The position numbers and the translations under genes were made by a program. The notes beneath the pieces were generated by a model, which saw only the letters and a list, made by a program, of their open reading frames with translations, did no database searches and was not told the origin of the DNA. Positions 2,444 to 17,204 of a stretch of 64,000 nucleotides of DNA are shown one piece after another (within the stretch, counting starts at the first letter, position 1; each line of letters starts with the position of its first letter). This stretch comes from Mycobacterium gallinarum (lineage in GTDB: Bacteria > Actinomycetota > Actinomycetes > Mycobacteriales > Mycobacteriaceae). The stretch covers positions 992,001 through 1,056,000 of the forward strand of contig NZ_AP022601.1 of the NCBI RefSeq assembly GCF_010726765.1, read 5' to 3'.

Positions 2444-2602
2444 CGTCGATCCCCTCTGAGAATTACGTCCCCCGACTTGGCAGAGTTAGAGAACTCAGCG
2501 TAGTCGGTCGGGCTTGTGACGCGGCGGCGTTTGCAGGGCTAGAGCGGTTTGCTGAGTGGTGCGGCGAAGTGGTAGACGCCCTGTGGCGGTTTAGGCTGGT
2601 GG

Positions 2603-3898: not shown

Positions 3899-3965
3899 TA
3901 GTGTCCGGAGTGGCTGTTAAATGGCTCGAACCGGCGCCACAAACTGCGAATCGGCGGAGTGATCA

Positions 3966-4658: not shown

Positions 4659-4965
4659 ACACAGGCGGCCCCTGCGGTTCGAGCGCGCAAGTGCGTACTT
4701 GAAGGGGCGGGGTGCCTCCAAAGTTGTAACGCGTTCACGGCCCCCGAGCCTTCTGGATCCTGTTTTCTACCCCCGCGAACTGCGCAAAAAAGCGCGTTTC
4801 CCCAGCGAAAAGTGAACACCGAGAACGGCGGTGGCGACGCGGAATTTCCGACATTAGCACTGGTGAACGATGTGTTCTGTTGTGACATTGGCGGCGGTTT
4901 GATTACTTGTGGAGTGAACGCCGGGCACATGTTCGCTAGGAGGTGTGTACCAGTAGGGAGGTCGG
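4659..4965. other. intergenic region, 307 bp, with GTGAAC repeats
   Basis: No credible gene. GTGAAC occurs four times (around 4655, 4812, 4863, 4914), and twice a GTTC follows within 5-11 nt, giving GAAC...GTTC pairs just before the HTH gene at 4966. These might be operator half-sites. GCGC-AAAAAA-GCGC at about 4782-4795 is a small hairpin. Confidence 0.3.
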
Positions 4966-5250
4966 GTGCCGAGGGTCTACGACGGTGCTGCGCGGGCGGC
5001 GCGCGATGCGCAGCTGCTGCGGCTCTACCTGGAGGGTCACAGCTACCGCGCCATCGCGGCGCAGCCCGGTCTGAGCCTTTCTCTGCGCGGTGTGGTGAAG
5101 GCGGTGCAGCGGCAGCTGGCCGCCGGGCTCCACCAAGACACCGTGGCGGCTGCCTTCGCTGCGGCGTACCAGGCTGCTTGCGACGGCGACGCACTCGGTG
5201 TACGGGCGCTGCGCCGCCTAGGGGCGAATGCTGGTCTGCCTGATCAGTAA
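4966..5250 (+). CDS. small HTH-like DNA-binding protein
   Basis: 94 aa. The GTG start is preceded by AGGGAGG at a proper distance. Residues 18-50 (LRLYLEGHSYRAIAAQPG followed by a polar recognition-like helix) look like a resolvase/sigma-type helix-turn-helix; the rest is alanine-rich helix. Its 3' end overlaps the convergent membrane protein gene by 7 bp. Function unknown; a regulator of the accessory region is plausible. GAAC/GTTC pairs upstream might be its operator. Confidence 0.5.
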   Translation: MPRVYDGAARAARDAQLLRLYLEGHSYRAIAAQPGLSLSLRGVVKAVQRQLAAGLHQDTVAAAFAAAYQAACDGDALGVRALRRLGANAGLPDQ

Positions 5251-5903
5251 CGACCCTGCAGATCTTGGCGCGCAACGTCGATGATCCGGTTGCACCGCCC
5301 AACCCAGGCGTCGAGATCGACATCAGCCGTGCCGGTCCCAATCTCTTGGACGGCGTTACTGAGCTGCCTCAGGGCCCGGTCATGTTCGGCCTTACGTTGA
5401 GACGCGTCGGTCCGCGACTCGAACTCTTCCGCTCGCCGCGTTCGTGCGAGTGTCCGTTCGGCGTTCTGCATCGTGGTCAAATGCACGGCGTGCGGACGAG
5501 TTAGGTCAGTTATGTGGGCGAGCATGTCATCGACAGCGTCTCGCACCGGTTCGGCTGCGTACGCCACGATGTCGCTGACGCCTTCCTCGTCGCCGAGCGC
5601 CTGCTTGAATCCGTACAGTTCAAGGGTCAGGCGCGCGCGCCAGGAGATGTAGTCGTCCTCTTCGCAGCCGGGCCGCTGCGCTATCTGCGCCTTGCGCTTG
5701 ACGCTGCGGCACGCGGAGATGAGCCTGCGCAACGCATCGCTTTTCGCCTGCCACACGCGGTCCTCGAAGTTCAAGGCTCGCTCATGCTGGCGGTCGTCCC
5801 GCCTCGTGGCCGCGTCGATGCGCTTGGTCCATATTGCGACAGTTGCGGTAGCAAGCACGGAGACGATGGGCACCACAACGGTCCCGAAAGTGGACCAGTC
5901 CAT
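5244..5903 (-). CDS. membrane-anchored coiled-coil hypothetical protein
   Basis: 219 aa. Residues 7-25 (GTVVVPIVSVLATATVAIW) form one N-terminal membrane segment. The remainder is a long, highly charged helical region rich in R, E, D and A, predicted cytoplasmic with coiled-coil character. No enzyme motif is seen. A single-pass anchor plus soluble coiled coil is common in accessory-region proteins, including phage exclusion factors, but nothing here proves such a role. Confidence 0.5.
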   Translation of the reverse strand: MDWSTFGTVVVPIVSVLATATVAIWTKRIDAATRRDDRQHERALNFEDRVWQAKSDALRRLISACRSVKRKAQIAQRPGCEEDDYISWRARLTLELYGFKQALGDEEGVSDIVAYAAEPVRDAVDDMLAHITDLTRPHAVHLTTMQNAERTLARTRRAEEFESRTDASQRKAEHDRALRQLSNAVQEIGTGTADVDLDAWVGRCNRIIDVARQDLQGRY

Positions 5904-5990
5904 GCGCCTGAGACTACGACGGATACATGGAATCCTTATGGGCGGCGTGCCGTCACGCGCGGGGCGGCTGATGCGGCAGCATTAGGGGGC

Positions 5991-6257
5991 ATGTGTGAAA
6001 CCCGAAAGGGCGTCGTCACGGTGCCTAACACGCTCGGCCCCCGCCGCAAGGCGCACGAAGCCACCGCGGCAGCCCTGAAGGATGCCGCCTCGCAGCTGGC
6101 CGACAACGAACAGCTCATCGCCGAGAGCGTGCGCCTCGACGGCACCGGGACGGCCCGTTGGAGTGAGGCGCACGAGGACTACGCCCTCATGGACTTTCCC
6201 TACACCTACACGGTGATGGTGCCGGGCTGCACTGGGTGGAGCAGGCCGGTCACGTAG
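5991..6257 (+). CDS. small hypothetical protein
   Basis: 88 aa if started at ATG 5991; a GTG at 6021 with GAAAGGG upstream would give 78 aa. The sequence has an alanine-rich helix (AHEATAAALKDAASQLADNEQ) and ends in an aromatic segment (DFPYTYTVMVPG). No known domain. It fits between two minus-strand genes and has coding-like GC3, but evidence is limited. Confidence 0.4.
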   Translation: MCETRKGVVTVPNTLGPRRKAHEATAAALKDAASQLADNEQLIAESVRLDGTGTARWSEAHEDYALMDFPYTYTVMVPGCTGWSRPVT

Positions 6258-6271
6258 CGGCACGGCGGCTG

Positions 6272-7000
6272 TCAGTGCTGAGTTAGCGGTACCGCGCGCA
6301 GTTGGCCTGCACGCAACTCTGTGGTCTCAGGTTCGCCCCAGTCGTCAAACCACCACCGCACTAAGTCTCGCTCCCAGCTAGGCACCACGTAGTCATCAGG
6401 CCAAGGGTCGTCGCCGTTGAGGAACTCACCAAAGCGCTGCAGGTAGCGGCAGCTCTCGTCCAGCCATTGGATCTGCTTCAGCGCTTGCACAAGGTCATGC
6501 TCGCTGACGGCGTCGAGCCGCGAATACTGTTGGGACCAGACGTCATCTCGGAAACTCAGCTCGCCGGGCCGCTTATTGCGCTTGCGCGGCTCGCCCGGCT
6601 TGCCGAGGCGCATGAAGGCCATCGCCCGGTTGGGCGGGGGAGAGTCGTTGTCCACCTTGGTGACATATAGCAGATGCGCCAACCTGTGGCGCACGTCGCC
6701 CGCCTGCAAGCATGCCGCCGACCACTCCTCATGGGGCCAGCGGATGTTGTAAATCTCAGCCACTCGCCGGATAGTCGCGGGCAGCTTGTCGGACTTGGCA
6801 GGCGGGCCTTCGCGGCCCACCGCGTGAAAGAACGCCCAGTTCACGTCGGACTTCAAGAGTTCCCACGCGCCCAGCACCTTGAGTGCGAATGCCTCGATCG
6901 AACTGGCGCTGGGCCACCATGCCTCCCGCCGGGCCTCATTGTCAGCAGCTACTCGCTGCTCCAGCTCGGCCAGCCGACGCCTTTGGTCGTCCTCACCCAT
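6272..7000 (-). CDS. hypothetical protein with HEPN-like R-x4-H motif
   Basis: 242 aa from ATG 7000 (start of MGEDDQRRRL). An upstream extension to 7081 is open but runs through an 11-bp tandem repeat and is unlikely coding. The N-terminus is a charged coiled coil (about 1-22), followed by a helical globular part with AFALKVLGAWELLKSDVNWA and a DVRHRLAHLLYV segment. R-H-R-L-A-H satisfies the R-x4-H signature of HEPN ribonucleases, but no other family evidence is visible. It lies directly outside attL of the 10-kb element. Confidence 0.5.
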   Translation of the reverse strand: MGEDDQRRRLAELEQRVAADNEARREAWWPSASSIEAFALKVLGAWELLKSDVNWAFFHAVGREGPPAKSDKLPATIRRVAEIYNIRWPHEEWSAACLQAGDVRHRLAHLLYVTKVDNDSPPPNRAMAFMRLGKPGEPRKRNKRPGELSFRDDVWSQQYSRLDAVSEHDLVQALKQIQWLDESCRYLQRFGEFLNGDDPWPDDYVVPSWERDLVRWWFDDWGEPETTELRAGQLRAVPLTQH

Positions 7001-7126
7001 GCGGCTCAGTATTGCGGGACGCCGCCACGCTTTTAGATAACGCCACGCCATAGCTAGGTATGTGGTGCGTATGTGGTGCAAGCTGCTGCACTCTCCGGTA
7101 AAAACCGGCTGCTACCTGCGTTAATG

Positions 7127-7151
7127 CTGGTGCGCGATACTGGGATTGAAC
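7127..7151. repeat. attL, left 25-bp attachment repeat
   Basis: Starts CTGGTGCGCGATACTGGGAT and is identical over 25 bp to 17129-17153. Here it is only the tRNA-Val 3' fragment, with no tRNA body beyond it. The hairpin CCGGT-AAAA-ACCGG just outside (7095-7108) would serve as a terminator for the uninterrupted tRNA. Confidence 0.9.
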
Positions 7152-7272
7152 TTGTATCCGTGCAACTTCTCCGGTGTGTGTCTGACCAGCTAAAGAAGGC
7201 CTTTGAACTGGCGACACGCTAAACAGTATCCCGTGCACTGGCGTACCCGCAAGTACCCTGCCGTGTACCCTC

Positions 7273-7294
7273 CTATTGCACGTTTATTGCACGG
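7273..7294. repeat. left integrase arm-type site (22-bp repeat)
   Basis: CTATTGCACGTTTATTGCAC and the next two bases recur exactly at 17063-17084. Each copy holds two TATTGCACG units 12 bp apart, the expected layout of tyrosine-integrase arm-binding sites. This copy ends 12 bp before the GTG start of int, so integrase binding could also repress its own promoter (inference). Confidence 0.65.
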
Positions 7295-7306
7295 ATGGGA
7301 GAAACA

Positions 7307-8443
7307 GTGACGCGCGACCGCCGCACGTTCGGCCGTCTACGCAAGCTGCCGTCCGGCCGCTACCAAGCCGCCTACATTGGCCCCGACGACCAACTCCACA
7401 CCGCGCCGCGCACCTTCAGCGCCAAAGTCGATGCCGAAGGCTGGCTCTCAGACAGGCGCAAGGAAATCGACCGAGAATTGTGGAACCCCGGCGCCGGCCA
7501 GGAGACTAAACGCAAACCCGACGCCCTTTTCAAGGACTACGCCCAAACCTGGGTTGAGACCCGCCGCGTCAAGGGACGGCCGCTGCGGCCCCGGACAAAG
7601 GAGCACTACACCAAACTGCTCGAAGGCCACATCTACCCGACGTTCGGTAAGAAACCGCTACGCACGATCACTCCGGAGATGGTGGACAAGTGGTACGCCA
7701 AAGCGGCGCCCGATACACCGACCACGAAGGCCCACGCCTACAGCCTCTTGCGGACTATTTTCGAGTCCGCCCGGACCAGTCGTCAGCGTCTCATCGACGT
7801 GAACCCGTGCATGATCGCCGGGGGCGGAAGCTCTGAGCGGAAGATCAAACCCAAACCGCTTAACGCCATCCAACTCGGGGCGCTTGTGGAGTCGATGCCC
7901 GACAGTTACCGGCTCATGGTGCTATTGGCAACGTGGGCGGCGATGCGTTTCGGTGAATTGGTTGAACTGCGTCGCAAAGACATCGACCTGGACGACGCCG
8001 TCGTGAACATCAGTCGCGCAGCGGTCCGGGTTGATGGGGGATGGGAAGTGGGAAAACCCAAGAGCGATGCGGGGATTCGTATCGTGACGATTCCACCCCA
8101 CATCATCCCCGCAGTCGAGCACCACCTGTCGAAATACGTTGACGCCAAACAAGACTCACTGCTGTTCCCGGCGAAGTCGGGTGGACACTTGCAGCCTTCA
8201 ACCCTGTACCGGCACTTCTACAAGGCCCGGGTCAAGGCTGGCCGACCGGACTTGCGTTGGCACGATCTGAGGCATTCGGGTGCCGTTTTCGCTGCGATGA
8301 CCGGAGCCACGCTCAAGGAACTGATGGACCGGCTGGGGCACAGCACCCCCGCCGCTGCACTGCGGTATCAACATTCAGCCGCGGGCCGAGACAAGCAAAT
8401 CGCCGCCGCCCTCTCGCGGCTTGCGGACGACACGCCGCTGTAG
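7307..8443 (+). CDS. int: tyrosine integrase
   Basis: 378 aa. GTG 7307 is chosen because GGGAG sits 5 nt upstream; ATG 7295 would extend it by four residues into the arm site. N-terminal arm-binding AP2-like region (about 1-60), SAM-like core-binding domain (about 65-160), C-terminal catalytic domain with first Arg in MRFGELVELR, HDLRHSG box, LGHS and Tyr in LRYQHS. It catalyses integration and excision between attP and the tRNA-Val attB. It sits inside attL, as expected for an integrase next to attP. No frameshift is seen; likely functional. Confidence 0.95.
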   Translation: MTRDRRTFGRLRKLPSGRYQAAYIGPDDQLHTAPRTFSAKVDAEGWLSDRRKEIDRELWNPGAGQETKRKPDALFKDYAQTWVETRRVKGRPLRPRTKEHYTKLLEGHIYPTFGKKPLRTITPEMVDKWYAKAAPDTPTTKAHAYSLLRTIFESARTSRQRLIDVNPCMIAGGGSSERKIKPKPLNAIQLGALVESMPDSYRLMVLLATWAAMRFGELVELRRKDIDLDDAVVNISRAAVRVDGGWEVGKPKSDAGIRIVTIPPHIIPAVEHHLSKYVDAKQDSLLFPAKSGGHLQPSTLYRHFYKARVKAGRPDLRWHDLRHSGAVFAAMTGATLKELMDRLGHSTPAAALRYQHSAAGRDKQIAAALSRLADDTPL

Positions 8444-8724
8444 CGAACCGCAGGGAACTCTGCGCCTGTCGTGCTAACTTGAAGGCACTGTTAGGAATCC
8501 GAAAAGGAGACCCGGCAGTCGGCATGGACACTCCGAAAGGGAGGACCTGCGAGGCCGCCAGTTCCGGCGGTTAGCCCGAGACGGGCTAGTGCGCGCGATG
8601 CGCATCTCAAGGGCCGCGCGACGCCAAAGGCCGTAGTCCCTGACTACATATGCCTTGGCGAGGAACGAAATGTCCATCAGCGGCAAATCAGGCTCGGTCC
8701 AAGGTAATTCCTTTGGAGCGAGCC
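8444..8724. other. int-xis intergenic region with hairpins
   Basis: No convincing gene; a 16-codon ORF at 8524-8574 is unsupported. A strong hairpin TAGCCCG-AGA-CGGGCTA lies at 8572-8588, preceded by CCGCC...GGCGG at about 8555-8570. These may terminate int transcription and/or lie in the leader of the early operon that begins with xis. Confidence 0.4.
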
Positions 8725-8922
8725 ATGCCCGAACACCAAACCAATTCTCTCGACATCGCCGCAGCAGCGGTCGAACTCAACGTATCCAAGAAATTCATTC
8801 GCGAACGCATCGCTGACGGCAGCCTGCCGGCGCACCGGCTTAGAGGCTCACGCCTGATCCGGATCACGCGTACGGATCTTGAGGCACTCAAGCAGCCAAT
8901 CCGCGGCGGTGCGGCCGGATGA
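8725..8922 (+). CDS. xis: excisionase family (MerR-type HTH) protein
   Basis: 65 aa. ATG 8725 has GGAG 6 nt upstream. The sequence SLDIAAAAVELNVSKKFIRE... LPAHRLRGSRLIRITRTDLE is the classical excisionase HTH_17 layout: helix-turn-helix, then a wing ending in a basic strand and LEALK. It would bind near the att sites and bias integrase toward excision. First gene of a closely overlapped operon; the next start (ATG 8919) overlaps its stop as ATGA. Confidence 0.85.
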   Translation: MPEHQTNSLDIAAAAVELNVSKKFIRERIADGSLPAHRLRGSRLIRITRTDLEALKQPIRGGAAG

Positions 8923-9188
8923 ATCCAACGAAAAGACCGGGCCCCGCCACAGGAACCCGGCCCCTTCCAAATACCAGTGACACTGATTTTACCCGCCTCC
9001 TAGGCCTTCAGCGCCACGAACCGCTGACAGTCGAGGACCGCGAAGACATCGAACTGCTTATGCGGGCTGCTGCGCGTGGATTCCGCTTGTCGACGAAGTG
9101 TGTCGACTGTGGGCACCCGTTGACGACGCTGGGTTCGATCCGTCGGCACCGCGGGCCGAAATGTCACGCCAGGGTGGTGGCCGAGTGA
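8919..9188 (+). CDS. small zinc-ribbon protein (DUF6011-like)
   Basis: 89 aa. The C-terminal half has CVDCGHPLTTLGSIRRHRGP followed by KCHARV, a C-x2-C...H/C pattern with the S..R..GP.C signature typical of DUF6011-like phage zinc ribbons. The N-terminal 40 residues are proline-rich and probably disordered. ATGA overlap with xis and GTGA overlap with the next gene show translational coupling. Role unknown. Confidence 0.65.
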   Translation: MNPTKRPGPATGTRPLPNTSDTDFTRLLGLQRHEPLTVEDREDIELLMRAAARGFRLSTKCVDCGHPLTTLGSIRRHRGPKCHARVVAE

Positions 9189-9511
9189 CTTACGAACTCG
9201 CGTCACAGCAAGTGAGTTGGGCAGATGTCCACGCATTCGTTCTGCCGAAGCTGAAATTGGTCGGCGATTGGCCCATGCTCGGTTCGCCTGCATGGTGCGG
9301 ACTCGATGATCGGGACCGCGTCAAGTGGGCGAGCGTACTCGATGCGGCCCAGCACTGGGCACTTCGCTTGGAACACGGCCAAATCGTCAGTTGCGAAGCC
9401 TCACATGATGTTTCCTCGGCTGGTGATTGGTTGAAGGTTGCCCGTGATGTGAGGCGGGGCGCCGACTACTTCGCTGCCCGTCCGTGGATGAAGCGGGGGG
9501 CCAACCGATGA
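9185..9511 (+). CDS. DUF2742 protein
   Basis: 108 aa from GTG 9185, which overlaps the previous stop. The sequence QQVSWADVHAFVLPKL, GDWPMLGSPAWCGLDD, AQHWALRLEHGQ and SAGDWLKVARD is a good match to DUF2742, found almost only in mycobacterial phiRv-type prophages and their relatives. Function is unknown; its fixed place before the DUF3631 ATPase suggests a replication or excision accessory role. It is a useful marker that this element belongs to the phiRv family. Confidence 0.75.
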   Translation: MTYELASQQVSWADVHAFVLPKLKLVGDWPMLGSPAWCGLDDRDRVKWASVLDAAQHWALRLEHGQIVSCEASHDVSSAGDWLKVARDVRRGADYFAARPWMKRGANR

Positions 9512-10968
9512 GCACTGATCGTTCCGACGAGCTCGCCGAGTGGTACGCCGAGGAAGACCCAGATCGGGGAGTCGAAGTACTCGACGCGGTCGAAACGTTT
9601 CTGGCTCGGTTCGTCGCCTATCCGAGCGCACACGCGCTAGTCGCACACGTGCTGTGGATCGTCCACTGCTGGTTCATGGATGCGTGGGAGTCGACCCCGC
9701 GCATCGCGTTCCTGTCACCAGAACCCGGCAGCGGAAAATCGCGCGCACTCGAGGTCACTGAACCGTTAGTGCCCCGGCCTGTGCACGCGGTCAACACCAC
9801 GCCCGCATACCTGTTCCGCAAGGTGTCCGACGAGGCAGGCAGGCCGACGATCCTCTACGACGAGATCGACACGGTGTTCGGGCCCAGGGCGAAGGACAAC
9901 GAGGACATCCGCGGAATGCTGAACGCCGGCCACCGAAAAGGCGCGACCGCGGGCCGATGCGTGATGCGGGGCAAGGTCGTCGAAACCGAGGAACTGCCAG
10001 CGTATTGCGCGGTAGCCCTCGCTGGTCTCGATGATCTGCCCGACACCATCATGACTCGATCGGTGATCGTTCGGATGCGTCGCCGCTCACCCGACGAACA
10101 CATTGAGCCATGGCGGCTGCGTGTCAACGGCGGCGAAGCCGAGAAGCTGCGCAACTGGCTGGCCGGTTGGGCGGCTGCTGCAACCGAGCGGCTTACAGGC
10201 GACTTCTGGCCGGACATGCCCACCGAGGTGGCCGACCGTGACGCCGACGTGTGGGAGGCCCTACTGGCAGTCGCCAACCTAGCGGGCGGGGACTGGCCGC
10301 AGCGCGCCCGAGTAGCGGCTGTAGCGCTTGTAGCGGCTTCTCGGCAGCGGACTCCCAGTCTGGGTTTGCTTCTGTTGCGCGACATCAGGACGGCGTTCAC
10401 CGCGGCCGGTCAAGAAGGGCTCACAACCGAGCAGCTTCTCTCGGACCTGAACCGCATGGACGAGTCGCCCTGGTCGACAATCCGCAGAGGTGAATCCCTC
10501 GACAGCCGCGGTTTGTCACAGCGACTGAACAAGTACGGCATCGGTTCCAAGCAGCACGTCGGTGAGCGTGGGGTTCGCGGCTACACCCAAGCGCAGTTCG
10601 AGGATGCCTGGAAGCGCTACCTACCTAGCCCGATGGGACCGGACATATCCGCTACATCCGCTACACCCACTACAGATTCGGCCACGGGAGCAGATGTAGC
10701 AGATGCATCAGGAGATACCCGCGAACTCAATTATGTCGGTGACAACCTGGATAACCGGGTCAACCAACCCCACCGGGTTGAAAGGGACACCCTGCCGCTG
10801 CTCGATGTACCCAAGTCGCACGGTGTAACCGCTGTAACCGATTCAAAAGGTCCGCCGGTCGAATGTTCTAGCTGTGGGCGCGAGATTCCCGACCACATGC
10901 ACGCGGCCCGCGAACGCAGGGTGTGTGGCCGCTGCATTGCGGTCGCTACGGCGAAAGCACAGATATGA
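9508..10968 (+). CDS. DUF3631 helicase-like replication ATPase
   Basis: 486 aa from ATG 9508 (ATGA overlap). P-loop PEPGSGKS near residue 70 and Walker B ILYDEID near 115 mark an AAA-type/SF3-like ATPase; DUF3631 covers roughly 180-360. A Ser/Thr-rich linker (about 375-400) leads to a C-terminal zinc ribbon CSSC...CGRC (residues about 453-477). Such proteins act as replicative helicase/primase partners of small prophages. Being the largest early gene, it probably starts autonomous replication after excision. No primase-polymerase domain is fused, unlike many relatives. Confidence 0.8.
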   Translation: MSTDRSDELAEWYAEEDPDRGVEVLDAVETFLARFVAYPSAHALVAHVLWIVHCWFMDAWESTPRIAFLSPEPGSGKSRALEVTEPLVPRPVHAVNTTPAYLFRKVSDEAGRPTILYDEIDTVFGPRAKDNEDIRGMLNAGHRKGATAGRCVMRGKVVETEELPAYCAVALAGLDDLPDTIMTRSVIVRMRRRSPDEHIEPWRLRVNGGEAEKLRNWLAGWAAAATERLTGDFWPDMPTEVADRDADVWEALLAVANLAGGDWPQRARVAAVALVAASRQRTPSLGLLLLRDIRTAFTAAGQEGLTTEQLLSDLNRMDESPWSTIRRGESLDSRGLSQRLNKYGIGSKQHVGERGVRGYTQAQFEDAWKRYLPSPMGPDISATSATPTTDSATGADVADASGDTRELNYVGDNLDNRVNQPHRVERDTLPLLDVPKSHGVTAVTDSKGPPVECSSCGREIPDHMHAARERRVCGRCIAVATAKAQI

Positions 10969-11255
10969 GCGAGTGGAACGGTCTGGTCAACGCGCTTTTC
11001 GGGATCCCTGATCTTGCCGGCGCGGCCTGCTGGGGCCGATGGGACTTGTTCGACCCGGAGCGTGAACGCGAGCCCGGACAGCAGTCAGAAGACCCGCACG
11101 ACCGACACCAGCTCGCGGTCAGCATCTGCCTGAACGAATGCCCCGTGCTCGATCAATGCCGCGCGTGGGTGGATTCGCTGAAGCCGTCGCAGCGGCCTAT
11201 CGGTGTCATCGCCGGAACGGTTCGCTACCAACACAAAAAGCGGGAGGCGGCATGA
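10965..11255 (+). CDS. WhiB-family [4Fe-4S] regulator, phage type
   Basis: 96 aa. Cysteines lie in AACWGR, then SICLNECPVLDQC, so four Cys for an iron-sulfur cluster; GVIAG replaces the host GVWGG turn, as in phage WhiB proteins, and is followed by a basic tail (RYQHKKREAA). The spacing of the second pair is C-x3-C rather than the usual C-x2-C. ATGA overlap with the DUF3631 gene. Phage WhiBs such as the TM4 protein modulate host WhiB2 targets; whether this does so is unknown. Confidence 0.75.
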   Translation: MSEWNGLVNALFGIPDLAGAACWGRWDLFDPEREREPGQQSEDPHDRHQLAVSICLNECPVLDQCRAWVDSLKPSQRPIGVIAGTVRYQHKKREAA

Positions 11256-11470
11256 CAAGCAAGCAGAACCAGCGGCCATGCGTGCGATGCCATACCGAAA
11301 CCACACGGTCGGCCTCGGGCCTGTGCTTTCAATGCCGGCCCGCACCCACGGTGGAGATCCACGGCGACATGTGCCGCATCGGCGGCGCTTTCGACCTACC
11401 CACAAGCAAGGCCCTTGTCTTGGCGCACCGAATCCTCGATGCGCTCACACCAACAATGAAGGAGCAGTAA
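11252..11470 (+). CDS. small zinc-finger protein
   Basis: 72 aa from ATG 11252 overlapping the whiB stop. CVRCHTE...CFQC (residues about 11-29) is a C-x2-C...C-x2-C knuckle; the rest is a short beta-rich and helical tail (PTSKALVLAHRILDAL). Probably a small nucleic-acid binding or regulatory protein of the early operon; no named family recognised. Confidence 0.6.
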   Translation: MTSKQNQRPCVRCHTETTRSASGLCFQCRPAPTVEIHGDMCRIGGAFDLPTSKALVLAHRILDALTPTMKEQ

Positions 11471-11475
11471 ACAAA

Positions 11476-11760
11476 ATGGACGACATCGACCTGACGGTGC
11501 CACTCGACGGGCACCGCGAACTCAGCGCCGCCGAACAGATGATGCTCGACGACCTGCGCTGGGTCTGGGGGCGACTGCAACAGTTCGGCCCCGAGCTATC
11601 CGAAGCGCGCCGCGAATTCAACGACATCCTCGAACCGTGGACCGCGACTCCGCACATGTATTCCGACGGCACAGTGGTCACGCGCGTGGTGGAGCCGTCG
11701 CACCATCTCTACGCGCCGCCGCACCGCCGCGGAACCGAAAGAGACTCGAATGACGACTGA
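11476..11760 (+). CDS. small hypothetical element protein
   Basis: 94 aa, acidic N-terminus (MDDIDLTVPLDG), a helical middle (MMLDDLRWVWGRLQQFGPEL) and a histidine/arginine-rich C-terminus (HHLYAPPHRRG). No known domain. Starts 5 nt after the previous stop and overlaps the next gene by 11 bp, so it belongs to the same operon. Confidence 0.55.
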   Translation: MDDIDLTVPLDGHRELSAAEQMMLDDLRWVWGRLQQFGPELSEARREFNDILEPWTATPHMYSDGTVVTRVVEPSHHLYAPPHRRGTERDSNDD

Positions 11761-12010
11761 CCGCATGGGATTAGCACTCGCCACCGTATCCCTCATTGAG
11801 AAGCCTGACGACAACGCGGTGGCTGATGCGCTGATGCCCGACAACCTTGACGACACACAAACGATGCTCGCGACGGCTGTCACAGCGGCTCACATGCTCG
11901 CCTCGCAGCTAGCCCTCCACCTCGAGGTTGACCGCGCCGACGTACTCGCGGTCCTACGGCACGACGTGGCCGACTGTTTCCAACAACCGAAGGAGAACAA
12001 CGATGACTGA
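11750..12010 (+). CDS. small hypothetical element protein
   Basis: 86 aa, acidic, two predicted helices (DDTQTMLATAVTAAHMLASQ and VDRADVLAVLRHDVADCFQQ). No recognisable domain. It overlaps both neighbours by 8-11 bp and precedes the scaffold-like gene; the ATG follows CGAATG with no strong ribosome site, so it is probably coupled to upstream translation. Confidence 0.55.
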   Translation: MTTDRMGLALATVSLIEKPDDNAVADALMPDNLDDTQTMLATAVTAAHMLASQLALHLEVDRADVLAVLRHDVADCFQQPKENNDD

Positions 12011-12509
12011 AAACACCACACCTGAAGCCGACGCACCTGGGGCAAATGCCACACCTGAAGCCGACGCAGGTGTAACAAATGTTCCACCTGAGCCCGAGGA
12101 GGAGCGGGCGCCCGAAGACAAGGAGGCGGCGAAATATCGGCGCAGACTTCGCGACACCGAAGCTGAACGCGACCGACTCACCGACAGGTTGACCACCTTG
12201 CAGCGCAGAGAAGTTGAACGCCTCGCCGCCGACCATCTGGCAGATGGTGCCGACCTTTGGCGAGACGGCGCACAACTCGAAGACGTGCTCGACGACGACG
12301 GAGACATCGACGCCGACAAAGTGACCGACCTGGCGCGCACGCTCCTCGAGTCGCATAGGCACTGGCGGAGAAACGCCCCCGCGGCGCCACCCGCATCAAC
12401 GGTGACCGCGAACGGGAAGATCACCGCCGAAGATCCTCAAGTGACGTGGACGGACCTTCTGAAGCAGTCCACGAAAGAGGCTCGCCCACAACGCGTGAAC
12501 CAGCGGTAG
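12003..12509 (+). CDS. putative capsid scaffolding protein
   Basis: 168 aa. A disordered Glu/Ala/Pro N-terminus (two TPEADA repeats, then PEPEEERAPEDKE) is followed by a heptad-like charged coiled coil (KYRRRLRDTEAERDRLTDRL..., residues 43-75) and a short basic C-terminus. Composition, size and position immediately before the major capsid gene are those of phage scaffolds. Since the capsid protein lacks a fused delta domain, a separate scaffold is expected. Assignment rests on context and composition, not on homology. Confidence 0.65.
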   Translation: MTENTTPEADAPGANATPEADAGVTNVPPEPEEERAPEDKEAAKYRRRLRDTEAERDRLTDRLTTLQRREVERLAADHLADGADLWRDGAQLEDVLDDDGDIDADKVTDLARTLLESHRHWRRNAPAAPPASTVTANGKITAEDPQVTWTDLLKQSTKEARPQRVNQR

Positions 12510-12655
12510 AATGGGGTGTGCGGCGGATGCCGAGGCCAGGTGCCCGCATCCGCCCGCACGCCGCCCCTGGTGGGCAACCCGAACAGCCCGTGGCTGTAGG
12601 GAATCCAATCCAACGTGGTCAAGAATTGACCACCTCCACCAGGAGCTAAATCATT

Positions 12656-13504
12656 ATGGCTTTGTACACATCAGGTGGTGCAGGCATCCTCCGTCCCGAG
12701 GAAGTCGGCGCCCTCATCGTTCAACCTGTCCAGCAGGCGAGCGTTGCGTTTCAGATCGCGACGGTCGTCCAAACCGACTCGCACGATTTCCGCATTCCCG
12801 TCATCACGTCGGATACCACGGCACAGTGGACTGCAGAGGGCAGCGACATCACCCCCTCAGATGTCGGTGTGAGTGAGATCAACCTCGTTCCGAAAAAGCT
12901 TGCCGCACTGTCCATCATCTCCAACGAACTCGCGAATGATTCCTCCCCGGCCGCGCAGACCGTTGTAGGGCAGTCCATCGCTCGCGACCTCGCGAAGAAA
13001 GTGGATTCGGCCTTCTTCGGCGACACCGTCGCCAACGGTCCAGCTGGTATCTCGTCGCTGAATGACATCCAATTCGTTGATGCGGACACCATCACCAACG
13101 TGGATCCGTTCTCCGAGGCGCTGTCGAAAGCGGAGAACGTCGGCGCCAACGTCACTGCGTTCGTCGCCAACGCCACCACCGTGCTCGCGTTGTCGAAGCT
13201 GAAGAAGCTGACATCGGGCAGCAATGAGCCACTGCTGCAGCCGGATCCGACGCGGCCCACACGCCGCCAGATCCTCGGCGTTCCGCTCTACTCGGTGCCA
13301 GACACGGTGGTGCCGGCCAACACCGTGTGGGCCGTCGACATGTCCCGCGTGTTTATCGTGCTGCGCCAGGACGTCGAGCTGGCTGTCGACGCGTCACGCT
13401 ACTTCGAAAGCGATCGCCTCGGCATCCGCGCCACCATGCGCGTCGACTTCGGCTTCCCGCATGAGCGGGCCGTCGTCAAGATCGCACCGGAACCCGGCAC
13501 CTAA
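12656..13504 (+). CDS. major capsid protein, HK97 fold
   Basis: 282 aa. Starts MALYTSGGAGILRPEEV, continues with IPVITSDTTAQWTAEGSDIT (E-loop region), ALSIISNELANDS (spine helix start), LGVPLYSVPDTV and ends with RATMRVDFGFPHERAVVKI (P-domain strand); this is the phage_capsid family. With no N-terminal 100-residue delta domain and no protease gene, assembly would use the separate scaffold just upstream. It would form the satellite shell around a genome of about 10 kb, or remodel a helper capsid (inference). Confidence 0.88.
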   Translation: MALYTSGGAGILRPEEVGALIVQPVQQASVAFQIATVVQTDSHDFRIPVITSDTTAQWTAEGSDITPSDVGVSEINLVPKKLAALSIISNELANDSSPAAQTVVGQSIARDLAKKVDSAFFGDTVANGPAGISSLNDIQFVDADTITNVDPFSEALSKAENVGANVTAFVANATTVLALSKLKKLTSGSNEPLLQPDPTRPTRRQILGVPLYSVPDTVVPANTVWAVDMSRVFIVLRQDVELAVDASRYFESDRLGIRATMRVDFGFPHERAVVKIAPEPGT

Positions 13505-13541
13505 TAGGTGGAGGCTCAGCGGGTTCACACCCTCTGAGCCC

Positions 13542-13581
13542 GTGTTCGTGGCCGTCTTACTCCTTTGGCGGCCACGAACAC
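13542..13581. terminator. hairpin terminator after capsid gene
   Basis: A perfect 13-bp stem (GTGTTCGTGGCCG with CGGCCACGAACAC) and 14-nt loop, preceded by a 7-bp hairpin GGCTCAG...CTGAGCC at about 13513-13540. No U-tract follows, common for mycobacterial terminators. Confidence 0.6.
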
Positions 13582-13606
13582 CCGGACCAACAAACGACAG
13601 GCACAC

Positions 13607-14251
13607 ATGGACACCGCTGTCGGCGTCATCGCACACCACACCCGGGCACACCACGCTTCGCAGCTCGCCGAAACCATTGACGCCGAATACATGTCAGTCG
13701 ACGACGGCACCCTCGGCGTCCCCGCCAACCACCGGAAAGTCTGGCAATGGCTGGTCGACAACCACACACCGGGCGCACAGTTCTGCGTCGCACTCGAAGA
13801 CGACGCCCAACCCGTCGCCGGATTCCGCAACCAACTCCACCAAGCCCTCACTGCCTCGCCCACACCCGTCGTCTCCCTCTACCTAGGACGAGGACGACCA
13901 CCGCACTGGCAGACCCGCATCCGCCAAGCCGTCACCAACGCCGACCAGACCGGCGCCCACTGGCTCATCACGGACGTACTCCTCCACGGCGTCGGACTCG
14001 CCATCCGCACCGACCTCGTTCCCTCGATGCTCGACACCACCCAACACAGCAGCCGCCCGATCGACTACGCCATCAGAGACTGGGCCAACGCACACGGACA
14101 CCGCATCGGGTTCTGCTGGCCCAGCCTCGTCGACCACCGCGACCAACCAACGCTCATCGCCCACCCCGACGGTGAGCCACGCACACAACCACGCACAGCG
14201 TGGCGCACCGGAACCCGACACGAATGGACACAGAAACAGGTGAGCCTCTAA
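13607..14251 (+). CDS. GT25-like glycosyltransferase
   Basis: 214 aa from ATG 13607. QLAETIDAEYMSVDDGTLG, then CVALEDDAQPV (residues about 62-72) supplies the EDD metal/nucleotide-sugar motif of glycosyltransferase family 25, followed by HWLITDVLLHGVGLAIRTDL, where the family normally has its acceptor-side glycine loop. Codon use is unusually C-ending and CAC/ACC-rich. Its place between capsid and HNH genes suggests modification of the capsid or of the host surface after induction; the substrate is unknown. Family assignment by motif only. Confidence 0.6.
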   Translation: MDTAVGVIAHHTRAHHASQLAETIDAEYMSVDDGTLGVPANHRKVWQWLVDNHTPGAQFCVALEDDAQPVAGFRNQLHQALTASPTPVVSLYLGRGRPPHWQTRIRQAVTNADQTGAHWLITDVLLHGVGLAIRTDLVPSMLDTTQHSSRPIDYAIRDWANAHGHRIGFCWPSLVDHRDQPTLIAHPDGEPRTQPRTAWRTGTRHEWTQKQVSL

Positions 14252-14607
14252 TGCCCAGAGCCCCACGCCACTGCGGACACCCTGACTGCCTCGCACTGGC
14301 CTACCCACCCAGCAGATACTGCGACGACCACAGCCGCGACAGCATCGGCTGGAACAAGTCGCCGCGCACCGCCAGCTCGACACGCACCAGCACACGGACG
14401 TGGCGCCGCCGCCGAGCCGAAGTACTCCAACGCGACAACCACATGTGCGTCGTACGCGGACCCAACTGCACCGTGACCGCAAGCGAAGTCGACCACGTCA
14501 TCCCGGTCTTCATGGGCGGCGACGATCGACCATCGAACTGCCAATCGGTTTGCGCCAACTGCCACCGCGACCGCACCCAAGCACAGGCAAGAGCGGCACG
14601 CGGATGA
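14251..14607 (+). CDS. HNH endonuclease
   Basis: 118 aa from ATG 14251, sharing one base with the preceding stop. CGHPDCLALAYPPSRYCDDH is a zinc site; RRAEVLQRDNHMCVV, EVDHVIPVFMGGDD and NCQSVCANCHRDRT are the HNH core (DH, N, H) with its CxxC. Small HNH proteins work with terminase in head-packaging of many phages and cf-PICIs, so a role in DNA packaging is likely; the large terminase itself is absent and would come from a helper. Confidence 0.85.
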   Translation: MPRAPRHCGHPDCLALAYPPSRYCDDHSRDSIGWNKSPRTASSTRTSTRTWRRRRAEVLQRDNHMCVVRGPNCTVTASEVDHVIPVFMGGDDRPSNCQSVCANCHRDRTQAQARAARG

Positions 14608-14632
14608 CACCGCGCGCCACTGTGCCTGGTGC

Positions 14633-14664
14633 CACGCCTTCCCGACCCGGGTGGGGAAGGCGTG
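14633..14664. terminator. hairpin after HNH gene
   Basis: An 11-bp stem CACGCCTTCCC / GGGAAGGCGTG (14633-14643 with 14654-14664), 10-nt loop, in the 140-bp gap downstream of the HNH gene. No U-tract; strong GC stem. Confidence 0.5.
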
Positions 14665-14746
14665 CGGGTGCCCTCACGGAAGCCGGTAGGTGCTGCGCAA
14701 AGGGAGTTCCGTACGTAGAAACGCACACTTTTGATAGGAGGAGATG

Positions 14747-15091
14747 ATGGCGAAGTCGCCGGAAGCAAGGAAAATACGCCGTGACCTCGACAAAGAACTC
14801 GAATCGGTGGCCCACGAACGCGGTCACACGCTGGTTTGGAGTGCTCAGGAACAGGCCGTTATCGGGCTGATTTGCGACCAGATCGACCGAAAAGTGGAGA
14901 TTTTCGCCGCTTATGAGGAGTCGTCGGACCCGAAGGTGAAGGTGAAGTTGTCGGGTGAGATGCGGTTGTTGGAGCAGTCGGTCGCTCGGCTGCTGCGACA
15001 GGTGAAGACGGACGTTCCCGGGCCGGAGTCGCAGCGAACTGTCGCGGCGCGGCGGGCTGTGCGGGCACGTTGGGACCGCGGCAGTGCCTAG
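14747..15091 (+). CDS. hypothetical packaging-position protein (possible small terminase-like)
   Basis: 114 aa; ATG 14747 preferred over ATG 14744 since AGGAGG lies about 6 nt upstream. Entirely helical and charged: EARKIRRDLDKELESVAHER, then RLLEQSVARLLRQVKTDVPG and a basic AARRAVRARWDRG tail. Similar small helical proteins occur just before terminase genes in mycobacterial phages. No HTH visible. A terminase-small or packaging-adaptor role is inference from position after HNH. Confidence 0.55.
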   Translation: MAKSPEARKIRRDLDKELESVAHERGHTLVWSAQEQAVIGLICDQIDRKVEIFAAYEESSDPKVKVKLSGEMRLLEQSVARLLRQVKTDVPGPESQRTVAARRAVRARWDRGSA

Positions 15092-15425
15092 GGTCAATCA
15101 GCCGGCCGGGTGGGTTATCCCTGGCCTCTACGAGAACCGAGTGCCATGTCGGCAGAGCGACAAACGGCCCGACCCTCGGTTGTGGCTCGGCTGCCAGGAC
15201 GCCGAGGAGATTGCGCGGCTCGATGCGTTGAAGGCCGAAGCCGAGATTGAGGAAGCCGTCTATAGGGCGGAGGCGGTTGAGCGTGGGGAGCCGTTTGAAT
15301 TGCCGCGCTGGTACGTCGGCGGCAATTTCTTCCCGTTGCCGCGTGACCATCCTTTGCGTGCCCGCGACGTGAGAAGGGTTCGTGTCTACCGCGATGACCG
15401 TGTTGTGCCCGTGTACGACGACTGA
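15084..15425 (+). CDS. hypothetical phage protein
   Basis: 113 aa from GTG 15084, overlapping the previous gene by 8 bp. Begins VNQPAGWVIPGLYENRVPCR with a second Cys in LWLGCQDAEE, then an acidic helix (AEIEEAVYRAEAVERGE) and WYVGGNFFPLPRDHPLRARD. No known domain. Coupled to the upstream gene, so likely part of the same packaging or head module. Confidence 0.5.
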   Translation: MPRVNQPAGWVIPGLYENRVPCRQSDKRPDPRLWLGCQDAEEIARLDALKAEAEIEEAVYRAEAVERGEPFELPRWYVGGNFFPLPRDHPLRARDVRRVRVYRDDRVVPVYDD

Positions 15426-15568
15426 AGACCAAGCGCGCCGTGCTGGCGGCCTGTGTCGTCGGCAGACTGCGCGGCCTCGCCGGGGGGCGCTATGGCGGCG
15501 CGTCAGCTATCGGGGGTGCCGCGCGGTACTAGGGCTGTGGACGAACGAGCACAAAACTGCCACAATGA

Positions 15569-15595
15569 TTATATTGGTCCTGATATAACTATTGC
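15569..15595 (+). promoter_or_regulatory. toxin-antitoxin promoter/operator, leaderless
   Basis: Inverted repeat TTATAT-N8-ATATAA (15569-15588) in an unusually AT-rich patch. Its right half contains a -10 TATAAC (15584-15589) six nt before the toxin GTG, and there is no ribosome site, so a leaderless mRNA with repressor binding over the -10 is predicted. Confidence 0.6.
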
Positions 15596-15931
15596 GTGGA
15601 TGAGTTGCCGCTGAAGCCAATTAAGTGGCTTGGCACCACCCTCGCCGATCTGCGAGCGCAGCGTGACGCAATCCGGTACGAGCTTGGTCATCAAATCTAT
15701 CGGGTGCAGCTTGGTCTGTGGCCCAACGATTTCAAGCCGATGAGCGATGTCGGCGTCGGCGCCTACGAGATAAGGGTGAGGGATGCGGACGGAATTGCGC
15801 GGGTCATGTACGTCGCCAAATTCGGTGATGTGATCCACGTCCTGCATGTTTTCACCAAGAAGGCGCAGAAGACTCCGCAGTCAGACATCGAGAAAGCAAG
15901 AGAGCGTTATAAGGAGGCGAGGAATGGCTAA
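15596..15931 (+). CDS. RelE/HigB-type toxin (Gp49-like)
   Basis: 111 aa from GTG 15596. LADLRAQRDAIRYELGHQIY, GVGAYEIRVRDADGIARVMYVAKFGDVIHVLHVFTKKAQKTP is the phage-derived Gp49/HigB family core: E-x-R strand, then the R-V-x-Y-V and V-L-H-x-F-x-K-K-x-x-K-T-P signature. These are ribosome-dependent mRNA interferases. Toxin-first order and an 8-bp overlap with the HTH antitoxin fit HigBA. All signature residues are intact, so activity is expected. It may stabilise the element or act as an anti-phage module. Confidence 0.85.
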   Translation: MDELPLKPIKWLGTTLADLRAQRDAIRYELGHQIYRVQLGLWPNDFKPMSDVGVGAYEIRVRDADGIARVMYVAKFGDVIHVLHVFTKKAQKTPQSDIEKARERYKEARNG

Positions 15932-16346
15932 CAGCGTGTTCTACGACATCGCGGACGACGCGGGTGAGGCGACCAACCTCACTGCGCGCAGTCTCTTGAT
16001 GATTGCGATAGAGCAGAGAATTCAGGAGAACGGGTGGAAGCAAGCGGAGGCCGCGCGGAGGCTGGGCGTGCAACAACCACGTGTCTCTGACCTTATGAAC
16101 GGCAAGATTGACAAGTTCAGTCTCGATGCACTGGTCAACATGCTGCCGGCGGTGGGGCTGATGGTCACCGTTGGCCCGACCACCGGCAAGCAAGGCCCGG
16201 TCCGTCTCGCGGGTTTAACCGGCGGATTGACGACCACACGAAGAAGTGTGGCAGCCGAGAACGTTCAGACCCCCCGACTCGCGAGGCGCGTACCTGCGGC
16301 GGCGAAGGCGCGTAAGAGTACGGGCGCAAAGGCAGCCAAGAAATAG
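15924..16346 (+). CDS. HigA-like XRE antitoxin with lysine-rich tail
   Basis: 140 aa; ATG 15924 has AAGGAGG upstream. HTH: WKQAEAARRLGVQQPRVSDL followed by MNGKIDKFSLDALVNMLPAVG (residues about 37-78), typical of HTH_37/HigA antitoxins of Gp49 toxins. After residue 90 there is an extra basic tail, VPAAAKARKSTGAKAAKK, recalling the AAK-rich tails of mycobacterial nucleoid proteins; usual relatives end near residue 100. The protein should neutralise the toxin and repress the 15569-15588 operator; the tail may add nonspecific DNA binding. Confidence 0.82.
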   Translation: MANSVFYDIADDAGEATNLTARSLLMIAIEQRIQENGWKQAEAARRLGVQQPRVSDLMNGKIDKFSLDALVNMLPAVGLMVTVGPTTGKQGPVRLAGLTGGLTTTRRSVAAENVQTPRLARRVPAAAKARKSTGAKAAKK

Positions 16347-16389
16347 GTTCGGCCCGCCACTCAAAGTTGGATGGCGGGCCGAACGTTTT
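16347..16389. terminator. strong bidirectional rho-independent terminator
   Basis: A 13-bp perfect stem (GTTCGGCCCGCCA, 16347-16359, with 16372-16384), 12-nt loop, then GTTTT. It begins right at the antitoxin stop and separates the convergent minus-strand gene pair. Confidence 0.88.
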
Positions 16390-16406
16390 GTAGGCGTTGC
16401 GCGGGA

Positions 16407-16715
16407 CTATCCGGTTCTGCTCAATCGGTCCAGCTCAGTTGCGGCTGCGAGCAGTTTCGTCGCGATATCGCGGGCCACGCTGCTGGTCAGCATGTCTTCC
16501 CATGCCACGCCTTCGAGGCGGATGCAGCGTTCCTCGACGGTCCCGTCACGAAGTTGCGTTCCGGAGACGAAGACGCGCGCGGGTGCATCGTTGGTGTATT
16601 GGACTTCAGGGATTGTCCATATCGGGCCGTCGAAGCTTCGGAACTCGTCGGTCTTGCCGACGTCGGCCCAATCCGACACCTCCGTGGCACCGGCGGGCCA
16701 GTCGACCGCGGTCAT
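16407..16715 (-). CDS. small prophage hypothetical, paralogue of the upstream gene
   Basis: 102 aa from ATG 16715, overlapping the upstream stop as ATGA. PARVFVSGTQLRDGTVEERC and VARDIATKLLAAATELDRL align with ARVYAAAIQLADGTVDDGTI and QARELAAALLQTAKEVDGW of the next gene, so the two are tandem duplicates. Beta-rich N-terminal part, C-terminal helix. Similar helix endings (ARxLAxAL...ADELDR) are common in mycobacterial prophage hypotheticals. Function unknown. Confidence 0.6.
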   Translation of the reverse strand: MTAVDWPAGATEVSDWADVGKTDEFRSFDGPIWTIPEVQYTNDAPARVFVSGTQLRDGTVEERCIRLEGVAWEDMLTSSVARDIATKLLAAATELDRLSRTG

Positions 16716-17026
16716 CGGTTGGCCCACCCGTCTACCTCTTTGGCGGTCTGCAGAAGCGCGGCGGCCAGCTCGCGCGCCTGGTCGCTGTTGAGATGTATTC
16801 CGTCCCGTTCGCCGTCGCAGACGTACAGACACGGCGGCTCGATGGTCCCGTCGTCGACGGTGCCGTCCGCGAGCTGAATTGCCGCGGCGTACACGCGGGC
16901 ATCGCTGTCGGTGATTGTGCGGTCGACTCCGAACACCGTCCGATGAGGTGGGGTGCCTTCCCATGGGCAGGCGAAGTCGGTGCCGGGGGGCGGTGAGATC
17001 GCAGGCGATAGGGCTGTGGTGGTCAT
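16712..17026 (-). CDS. small prophage hypothetical, first of duplicated pair
   Basis: 104 aa. ATG 17026 is preferred because GAGAGG lies 9 nt upstream; ATG 17035 would overlap that site. Core TVFGVDRTITDSDARVYAAA, EPPCLYVCDGERDGIHL, then a C-terminal helix SDQARELAAALLQTAKEVDG. Paralogous to the downstream gene. The promoter must lie in 17027-17128, right beside the right arm site, so integrase/excisionase binding could affect its expression. Confidence 0.6.
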   Translation of the reverse strand: MTTTALSPAISPPPGTDFACPWEGTPPHRTVFGVDRTITDSDARVYAAAIQLADGTVDDGTIEPPCLYVCDGERDGIHLNSDQARELAAALLQTAKEVDGWANR

Positions 17027-17062
17027 GCGGTGCATCCTCTCGGGTCGGTACCGACACCGGAG

Positions 17063-17084
17063 CTATTGCACGTTTATTGCACGG
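17063..17084. repeat. right integrase arm-type site (22-bp repeat)
   Basis: Exact copy of 7273-7294 in the same orientation, with two TATTGCACG units, 45 bp inside attR. The left copy is 121 bp inside attL. Confidence 0.65.
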
Positions 17085-17097
17085 CCGCCGATTGGAA

Positions 17098-17117
17098 GTC
17101 AGAAAACCGCTTCTGAC
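17098..17117 (-). terminator. tRNA-Val terminator supplied by the element
   Basis: Stem GTCAGAA / TTCTGAC (7 bp, 6-nt loop), just downstream of tRNA-Val on the minus strand and inside the element. It replaces the original hairpin now displaced to 7095-7108. Confidence 0.5.
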
Positions 17118-17128
17118 CTGCTATCGAA

Positions 17129-17153
17129 CTGGTGCGCGATACTGGGATTGAAC
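17129..17153. repeat. attR, right 25-bp attachment repeat
   Basis: Identical to 7127-7151; it covers the acceptor 3' strand, the CCA and half of the T arm of tRNA-Val(GAC), so integration restores the tRNA. Confidence 0.9.
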
Positions 17154-17204
17154 CAGTGACCTCTTCCGTGTCAGGGAAGCGCTCTCCCGCTGAGCTAATC
17201 GCGC
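17130..17204 (-). tRNA. tRNA-Val (GAC)
   Basis: Minus strand: acceptor GCGCGAT pairs with ATCGCGC, D arm GCTC...GAGC, anticodon stem CTTCC/GGAAG with loop CTGACAC (anticodon GAC), T arm ACTGG TTCAATC CCAGT, discriminator A and encoded CCA. The 3' end is the attachment site of the element. Confidence 0.95.

Follow-up and report, generated by a model that had tools for sequence, protein, structure and literature searches.

A putative capsid-encoding satellite without a recognised large terminase or portal at a tRNA-Val gene of Mycobacterium gallinarum

The stretch analysed here, called the window, covers 64 kb (G000:C1:992001-1056000) of the 6.3-Mb genome of Mycobacterium gallinarum and carries, at a tRNA-Val(gac) gene, an integrated element measuring 10,002 bp from core to core (Table 1). 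This element is probably an apparently intact, helper-dependent satellite, similar to phage-inducible chromosomal islands (PICIs), that builds a small head of its own. It encodes an HK97-type major capsid protein and a scaffold-like protein, and no portal, large terminase subunit (TerL), protease, tail or lysis family was recognised among the 20 open reading frames (ORFs) of the element that were scanned. A helper-dependent, capsid-encoding satellite had already been proposed from the letters and ORFs of this DNA (hereafter the sequence-only reading), and this proposal is still the best reading of the evidence; its comparison with capsid-forming PICIs (cf-PICIs) had to be abandoned, as neither TerL nor portal was found in the element.

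The element is bounded by two attachment (att) repeats, identical over exactly 25 bp without extension and occurring twice in the 64 kb, which confirms the perfect att repeats claimed by the sequence-only reading; the right repeat is the 3' end of the intact tRNA gene. Identical 22-bp arms, each with two TATTGCACG motifs, were located just inside both ends. Most genes of the element were transcribed in one direction, in the order integrase, excisionase-like, DUF6011, DUF2742, DUF3631, WhiB-like, small ORFs, scaffold-like and capsid, followed in the right half by glycosyltransferase, HNH nuclease, probable small terminase subunit (TerS-like), a gene without assigned function, HigB and HigA, and closed on the right by a single gene in the opposite orientation. 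Apart from the integrase (382 aa) and the DUF3631 protein, no product of the scanned ORFs exceeded 290 aa. Phage matches of the element genes were largely mycobacterial. Profile matches supported the integrase, excisionase, capsid, HNH and toxin-antitoxin genes named beforehand, as well as a DUF3631 protein (E 6.2e-56) that shows a P-loop by eye and is a probable replication ATPase. The scaffold assignment, also upheld, was weak by profile alone and was strengthened by the homologue adjoining the capsid gene in 24 of 29 related loci. The capsid protein covered positions 109-383 of the 385 of TIGR01554, the N-terminal part of the model being absent. The element agrees with phiRv2 in the tRNA-Val site and the general architecture, and may be related to it.

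The absence of TerL and portal was assessed on the scale of the whole 6.3-Mb genome, in which neither the TerL profiles phrog_9 and phrog_2 nor the portal profiles phrog_104 and PF05133 gave any match at E<=1e-5. As controls, phrog_9 recognised TerL in all four cases tried (TM4, Che8, Giles and the related locus L071), and phrog_104 matched three of the four portals, that of Giles belonging to phrog_113. Finding either protein by profile search had been named beforehand as a ground for rejecting the satellite, and none was found within these families. No head maturation protease or connector family was recognised among the 20 ORFs either, one small gene behind the TerS-like gene being left without assignment. 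The statement that the element lacked every other structural and lysis gene agreed with the scans for portal, TerL, protease, tail and lysis families and was slightly too strong otherwise, given the glycosyltransferase and the probable small terminase, both of which the sequence-only reading had overlooked, together with the tandem array described below. cf-PICIs have been defined, in the parts of the source consulted, by a large terminase and a portal of their own (PMC10690885). Of their features the element has the major capsid and the HNH nuclease, a small terminase is probable, and portal, TerL and maturation protease or connectors were not found; since terminase and portal were specifically tested, the element is not a cf-PICI.

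The capsid was not restricted to the window. Homologue searches were based on a genus sample of 396 genomes, own genome included, and capsid homologues at E<=1e-20 were present in 93 of them, at 119 places. Twenty kb were fetched around 40 of the 118 other places, picked mainly by capsid similarity and contig size and regardless of neighbouring genes, so that 78 places stayed outside this sample (77 once L158 was added). By profiles, TerL and portal were absent near the capsid in 39 of the 40 loci, with weaker value in L036, L037, L052 and L053, where a contig end lies close to the capsid gene; L071 (capsid 37% identical) had both close by, as had L158 (41%), the 41st locus. In a 51-row capsid tree, from which the capsids of TM4, Giles and Che8 were excluded, 38 capsids formed one branch (bootstrap 84, SH-aLRT 90), made up of the capsids of the window, of L034 to L069 and of the viral contig L151. 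None of them had a detected TerL or portal beside it, L151 having been searched for neighbours with tblastn alone, and all eight rows with TerL or portal fell outside it, as did five rows without them (L070, L072, L073 and two M. aichiense capsids). The dN/dS of the capsid gene against its four nearest relatives was 0.19 to 0.27 (simple counting method, dS about 1), and that of the TerS-like gene against four relatives was 0.3 to 0.5 (dS 0.9 to 1.6). By these ratios the capsid branch is under purifying selection; it is a lineage and not a wreck. An 11-row capsid alignment, excluding L009 (internal stop) and others, was used for no further search; a capsid search of wider genome contigs yielded one locus, in Mycolicibacterium palauense.

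The right half of the element resembled the region around the cohesive end site (cos) of complete mycobacteriophages. The right end of Che8 carries the glycosyltransferase gene gp110, gp111 and the HNH gene gp112 before the genome end, and TerS (gp1) opens its left end. prophiGD22-1 has two small genes between glycosyltransferase and HNH, then a gap of 132 bp, and beyond it TerS, TerL, portal, scaffold and capsid; in the phage form phiGD22-1 the genome ends fall inside this gap, at a distance of 51 bp from HNH and 81 bp from TerS. The order in the window is glycosyltransferase, HNH, 136 bp and TerS-like, and, as judged from these gene orders, a positional match with phage cos regions was shown. 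The 136-bp gap (14608-14743) is thus a candidate cos, proposed on position only. The glycosyltransferase was 52% identical to Che8 gp110 and 48% to prophiGD22-1 gp82, and the HNH protein was 54% identical to prophiGD22-1 gp85 and only 27% to Che8 gp112. The HNH protein of the element also matched, across its HNH part, phrog_4581, a family named terminase small subunit (E 7.9e-10). No similarity was detected between the window capsid and those of Che8 or prophiGD22-1, nor between their TerS and the TerS-like protein. Che8 gp110 is named as essential for capsid glycosylation in PMC12363180, citing Freeman 2023. In L151 to L153 (capsid 73%), HNH lies close after the capsid gene and no glycosyltransferase match was found, so that this gene was most simply gained in the lineage of the window. 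Glycosyltransferase homologues occurred in seven of the 396 genomes, own included. One of them, G136, has a tRNA-Pro island (L155:8879-15752) with a different integrase and a different capsid (phrog_10, E 4e-20) adjoined by the glycosyltransferase; integrase, excisionase-like, ATPase-like and scaffold-like genes were recognised there by eye, next to a WhiB-like gene, and tblastn with phage queries, the only search made for them in this island of unmapped ends, revealed no TerL or portal. By our reading, capsid and glycosyltransferase have been joined at least twice in such islands.

The 115-residue protein encoded at 14744-15091 is a probable small terminase. It matched no named family in profile scans, and a comparison by hhalign of seven aligned relatives with seven satellite TerS-type proteins gave a probability of 74.5% and a score of 34.7, against at most 1.6% and 17.5 for 30 column shuffles. 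Gene position pointed in the same direction: in L151 the gene behind HNH encodes a TerS like that of the M. aichiense records (29%, E 4e-5), and in L153 one copy of HNH is followed by what is, by eye, the L151 protein and another by the kind found in the window. In L153, a single viral contig, the HNH and TerS genes are repeated nearly unchanged (L153:7743-13883), likely through an assembly fault, and this seemingly misassembled locus was used as extra positional evidence only. The next gene (15087-15425) has homologues in L052 (28%, E 2e-4), where a TerS of the M. aichiense kind lies before it, and in L063 (37%), where the preceding TerS is of the window kind. The AlphaFold2 model of the TerS-like protein was all helix (pLDDT 79.6), and its Foldseek search (best E 0.65 in PDB, 0.18 in BFVD) was uninformative because a four-helix model is too generic; tblastn of the protein and one homologue against phages gave no match.

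Packaging of the element is suggested by analogy with phage records of similar size. The best matches of the window capsid among 50,697 phage records were twelve from M. aichiense (OR387110-OR387121; 35-36%), of 10.9 to 11.1 kb. The full annotations of two of them, Alyssa1 and Anya (L003 and L004; OR387110 and OR387111), list no portal or large terminase, and the Alyssa1 gene labelled terminase was profiled as a small subunit (E 9.5e-16). Ten Alyssa1 proteins were scanned, of which seven belonged to clear phage families (TerS, adaptor, head closure, replication, scaffold, capsid and tape measure) and three had no match or a weak one. These records, which do not say so themselves, can by our reading be considered packaged satellites. 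They share with the element the size, the capsid and, in Alyssa1, scaffold and small terminase; the two compared differ by a serine integrase, a head-tail adaptor, a stopper, a short tape measure and no annotated glycosyltransferase. The chromosomal island L070 has adaptor, stopper and integrase of the same types at 57-61%. A candidate cos lies ahead of TerS in L070, upstream of 11394, in a stretch that by eye looks similar to the ends of the M. aichiense records when these are joined. In a search for their helper, 100 bases of the left end of Alyssa1 matched nine records, all from M. aichiense and itself included; no paper on these records was found in our literature search.

The life cycle of a PICI-like satellite could then be drawn as follows. 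Integrase and excisionase would move the element in and out of tRNA-Val(gac), and the DUF3631 and DUF2742 genes would serve its replication as soon as a helper phage becomes active. Scaffold and HK97-type capsid would form a small head for about 10 kb, possibly marked by the phage-type glycosyltransferase, and the TerS-like protein and HNH would present the DNA of the element to the large terminase of a helper, from which portal, motor and tail would also come. Several points weigh against this. Packaging and helper are putative, neither excision nor particles nor transfer having been seen, and the fit of a foreign portal to this capsid is a source of doubt. The genome contains no resident helper of the tested terminase and portal families, and a helper must therefore come from outside. 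Support for the 38-row branch is moderate, the similarity of the 136-bp gap to the cos gap of prophiGD22-1 did not exceed chance (29 of 500 random sequences were as good globally, 74 of 500 locally) and the DNA fold of the gap was ordinary (z -1.05). A brief likeness to the junction of the Che8 genome ends was also noted and is given no weight. The tRNA-Val loci of 29 relatives and of the own genome, aligned to the left flank of the array, revealed no clean empty site: the only long match, L132 (71% over 663 bases), left about 650 bp up to the tRNA uncovered, and three further relatives gave short matches only.

A broader proposal, for which we would give somewhat less than even chances, is that the element belongs to a class of satellites providing the shell only. 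A lasting capsid lineage without portal, large terminase or tail genes would build a complete shell with its own scaffold, to which an unrelated phage would contribute portal, motor and tail, and packaging would be redirected at a cos of the satellite by the TerS and HNH that it encodes; the present member would have captured a glycosyltransferase-HNH block of the Che8/prophiGD22-1 type and may sugar its own shell. If so, phages of this type would be the first helper candidates, and an HK97-type shell could take a foreign portal and motor, making the element a working intermediate between the satellites of the literature compared, which have either no capsid gene or a whole head kit.

Three other explanations were considered. 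An interference satellite, whose capsid and scaffold form no separate head but join the assembly of the helper capsid, change its size or poison it, and whose DNA enters a resized helper head, would agree with the lack of an own portal and with the action of the switchers of Staphylococcus aureus pathogenicity islands (SaPIs) on helper capsid assembly (PMC12409344, in the part consulted). However, known switchers are not full HK97-type capsids with scaffold, the scaffold-capsid pair is kept in 24 of 29 loci and the capsids of Che8 and prophiGD22-1 bear no detected similarity to that of the window, which makes this explanation rather unlikely. Still less probable is an immobile remnant of a prophage or cf-PICI that has lost portal, terminase and tail. 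The use of the same site by cf-PICI-like islands (TerL, portal and capsid) with related integrases, four of 12 complete islands, could be taken as favouring such decay, but the repeats and arms are exact, the genes open and the capsid constrained, a 38-row branch lacks terminase and portal throughout and the cf-PICI capsids at this site are distant in the tree. A domesticated capsid, serving the host as shell or defence and not for DNA, is very improbable, for even if the capsid of neighbouring island B likewise has no terminase or portal recognised nearby, the best matches are phage capsid families, the capsid gene travels with integrases, and the presence of scaffold, HNH and TerS-like genes suggests a role in packaging DNA.

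Comparison with described systems placed this PICI-like satellite among known candidates. Mycobacterium regions with integrase and capsid, phiRv1/2 among them, were presented as candidate PICIs by Abad et al. in 2023, without demonstration of phage induction (PMC10654092); section 9 of that paper already contains the idea of phiRv-type satellites, which the sequence-only reading had raised as an unsettled point. The element fits such a candidate, as it has integrase (PF00589) and capsid (PF05065). The candidates share integrase, major capsid and tRNA site, and genes for scaffold, terminase or helicase occur in some of them, but section 9 describes no glycosyltransferase, tandem array or terminase-free class, whereas the element has the glycosyltransferase-HNH-TerS-like block. 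cf-PICIs and MulchRoom/MiniFlayer likewise have their own capsid, scaffold and HNH and depend on a helper for tails; unlike the window element, in which none were found, they have TerL and portal, according to PMC10690885. With SaPIs and classical PICIs the element shares integrase, excisionase and replication gene, and TerS redirection with some; these use small proteins that resize the helper capsid (PMC12409344 and PMC10690885, both in part), whereas the element encodes a capsid. Che8 and prophiGD22-1 have in common with it the glycosyltransferase-HNH-cos-TerS order and the identities given above, but they are full phages with TerS of another kind and capsids without detectable similarity. 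Among the best-ranked results of a literature search that left subscription journals mostly outside, no title dealt with a satellite glycosyltransferase or with terminase- and portal-free capsid satellites as a class. New here are the terminase- and portal-free capsid branch, the glycosyltransferase-HNH-gap-TerS block, the three-island array and the link to the M. aichiense records of about 11 kb, which may offer a lead on the movement of phiRv-type mycobacterial islands in small heads.

The same tRNA-Val site was found to host a variety of islands. The att core, with at most one mismatch, directly preceded the integrase in 19 of 19 loci with the closest integrases, and a second core followed 9.4 to 14.1 kb further in 12 of them (within the 14-15 kb fetched). 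Four of these complete islands, L099, L102, L105 and L107 (10.4-13.2 kb), were cf-PICI-like, with portal, capsid and one terminase-cluster gene (with the Che8 TerL label in three). In L114 (9.8 kb) a homologue of the Che8 tape measure was labelled (47%), but no capsid. The remaining seven had no labelled virion gene except a TerS-like gene in L097 and HNH in L103 and L109; a profile scan of nine L097 proteins revealed no capsid. Related integrases thus occur with varying head modules, a reshuffling that argues for exchange.

The element itself is the last of three islands in tandem. Copies of the att core at 976451, 982907 (23 inner bases exact in these two), 999127 and 1009129 delimit an array (G000:C1:976451-1009153) of which positions 1-17153 of the window are the right part. 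Each of the first three cores precedes an integrase, the first two 58% and 65% identical to that of the element and the third being its own. The element lies next to the tRNA and is probably the latest arrival. Island A (6.5 kb) has an integrase and a WhiB-like gene. Island B has an integrase, an excisionase-like gene and a different PF05065 capsid (E 1.2e-16), near which no terminase or portal was recognised with the same profile families. Besides this capsid it encodes a PDC-S11 defence candidate and a restriction enzyme of 1635 residues (PADLOC Type IIG; Pfam Type_ISP_C); the places noted for the three are window positions 1-2443, on the minus strand and continuing to the left, and L096:12304-14513. 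The array and the shared site show that islands differing in their subsets of virion genes have used one attachment site. Tandem arrangement may be common; a further integrase or att core was seen past the first island in L105 and L114, and two cores 1.4 kb apart in L130.

Table 1. Features of the window around the putative satellite (window positions; identities are of proteins)
Feature	Position	Strand	Evidence
Right part of neighbouring island B (16.2 kb)	1..7126		att cores G000:C1:982907 and 999127
attL core, 25 bp	7127..7151		identical to 17129-17153; core also precedes 19/19 related integrases
22-bp arm, probable integrase arm site	7273..7294	+	identical copy at 17063-17084; putative role
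Tyrosine integrase, 382 aa	7295..8443	+	PF00589 E 1.7e-19
Excisionase-like helix-turn-helix (HTH) protein (ORF opens at 8650)	8725..8922	+	PF12728 (HTH_17) E 8.1e-9; phrog_66 E 6.3e-6; start by eye
DUF6011 protein	8919..9188	+	PF19474 E 2e-7
DUF2742 protein	9185..9511	+	PF10888 E 1.6e-29
DUF3631 protein, probable replication ATPase	9508..10968	+	PF12307 E 6.2e-56
WhiB-like regulator	10965..11255	+	phrog_9926 E 3.7e-6; PF02467 E 1.2e-4, just below its cut-off
Scaffold-like protein	12003..12509	+	phrog_4708 E 0.0067
HK97-type major capsid, 282 aa	12656..13504	+	PF05065 E 5.2e-36; TIGR01554 E 1.7e-43
Phage glycosyltransferase	13607..14251	+	phrog_854 E 3.5e-79; 52.5% over 204 aa to Che8 gp110
HNH nuclease (ORF opens at 14200)	14251..14607	+	PF01844 E 1e-8; 53.8% over 117 aa to prophiGD22-1 gp85
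136-bp gap, candidate cos region by position only	14608..14743		same place as the 132-bp gap of phiGD22-1
Probable small terminase (TerS-like), 115 aa	14744..15091	+	hhalign 74.5%; position
Protein without assigned function behind TerS genes	15087..15425	+	also after TerS-type genes in L052, L063
HigB-type toxin	15596..15931	+	PF05973 (Gp49-type) E 4e-24
HigA-type antitoxin	15924..16346	+	PF13744 (HTH_37) E 3.6e-23
Small right-end protein, 102 aa, no family	16407..16715	-	64% in L097, 32% in L102
22-bp arm, second copy	17063..17084	+	identical to 7273-7294
attR core, 25 bp, 3' end of tRNA-Val	17129..17153		repeat identity
Intact tRNA-Val(gac), attB gene	17130..17204	-	right core is its 3' end

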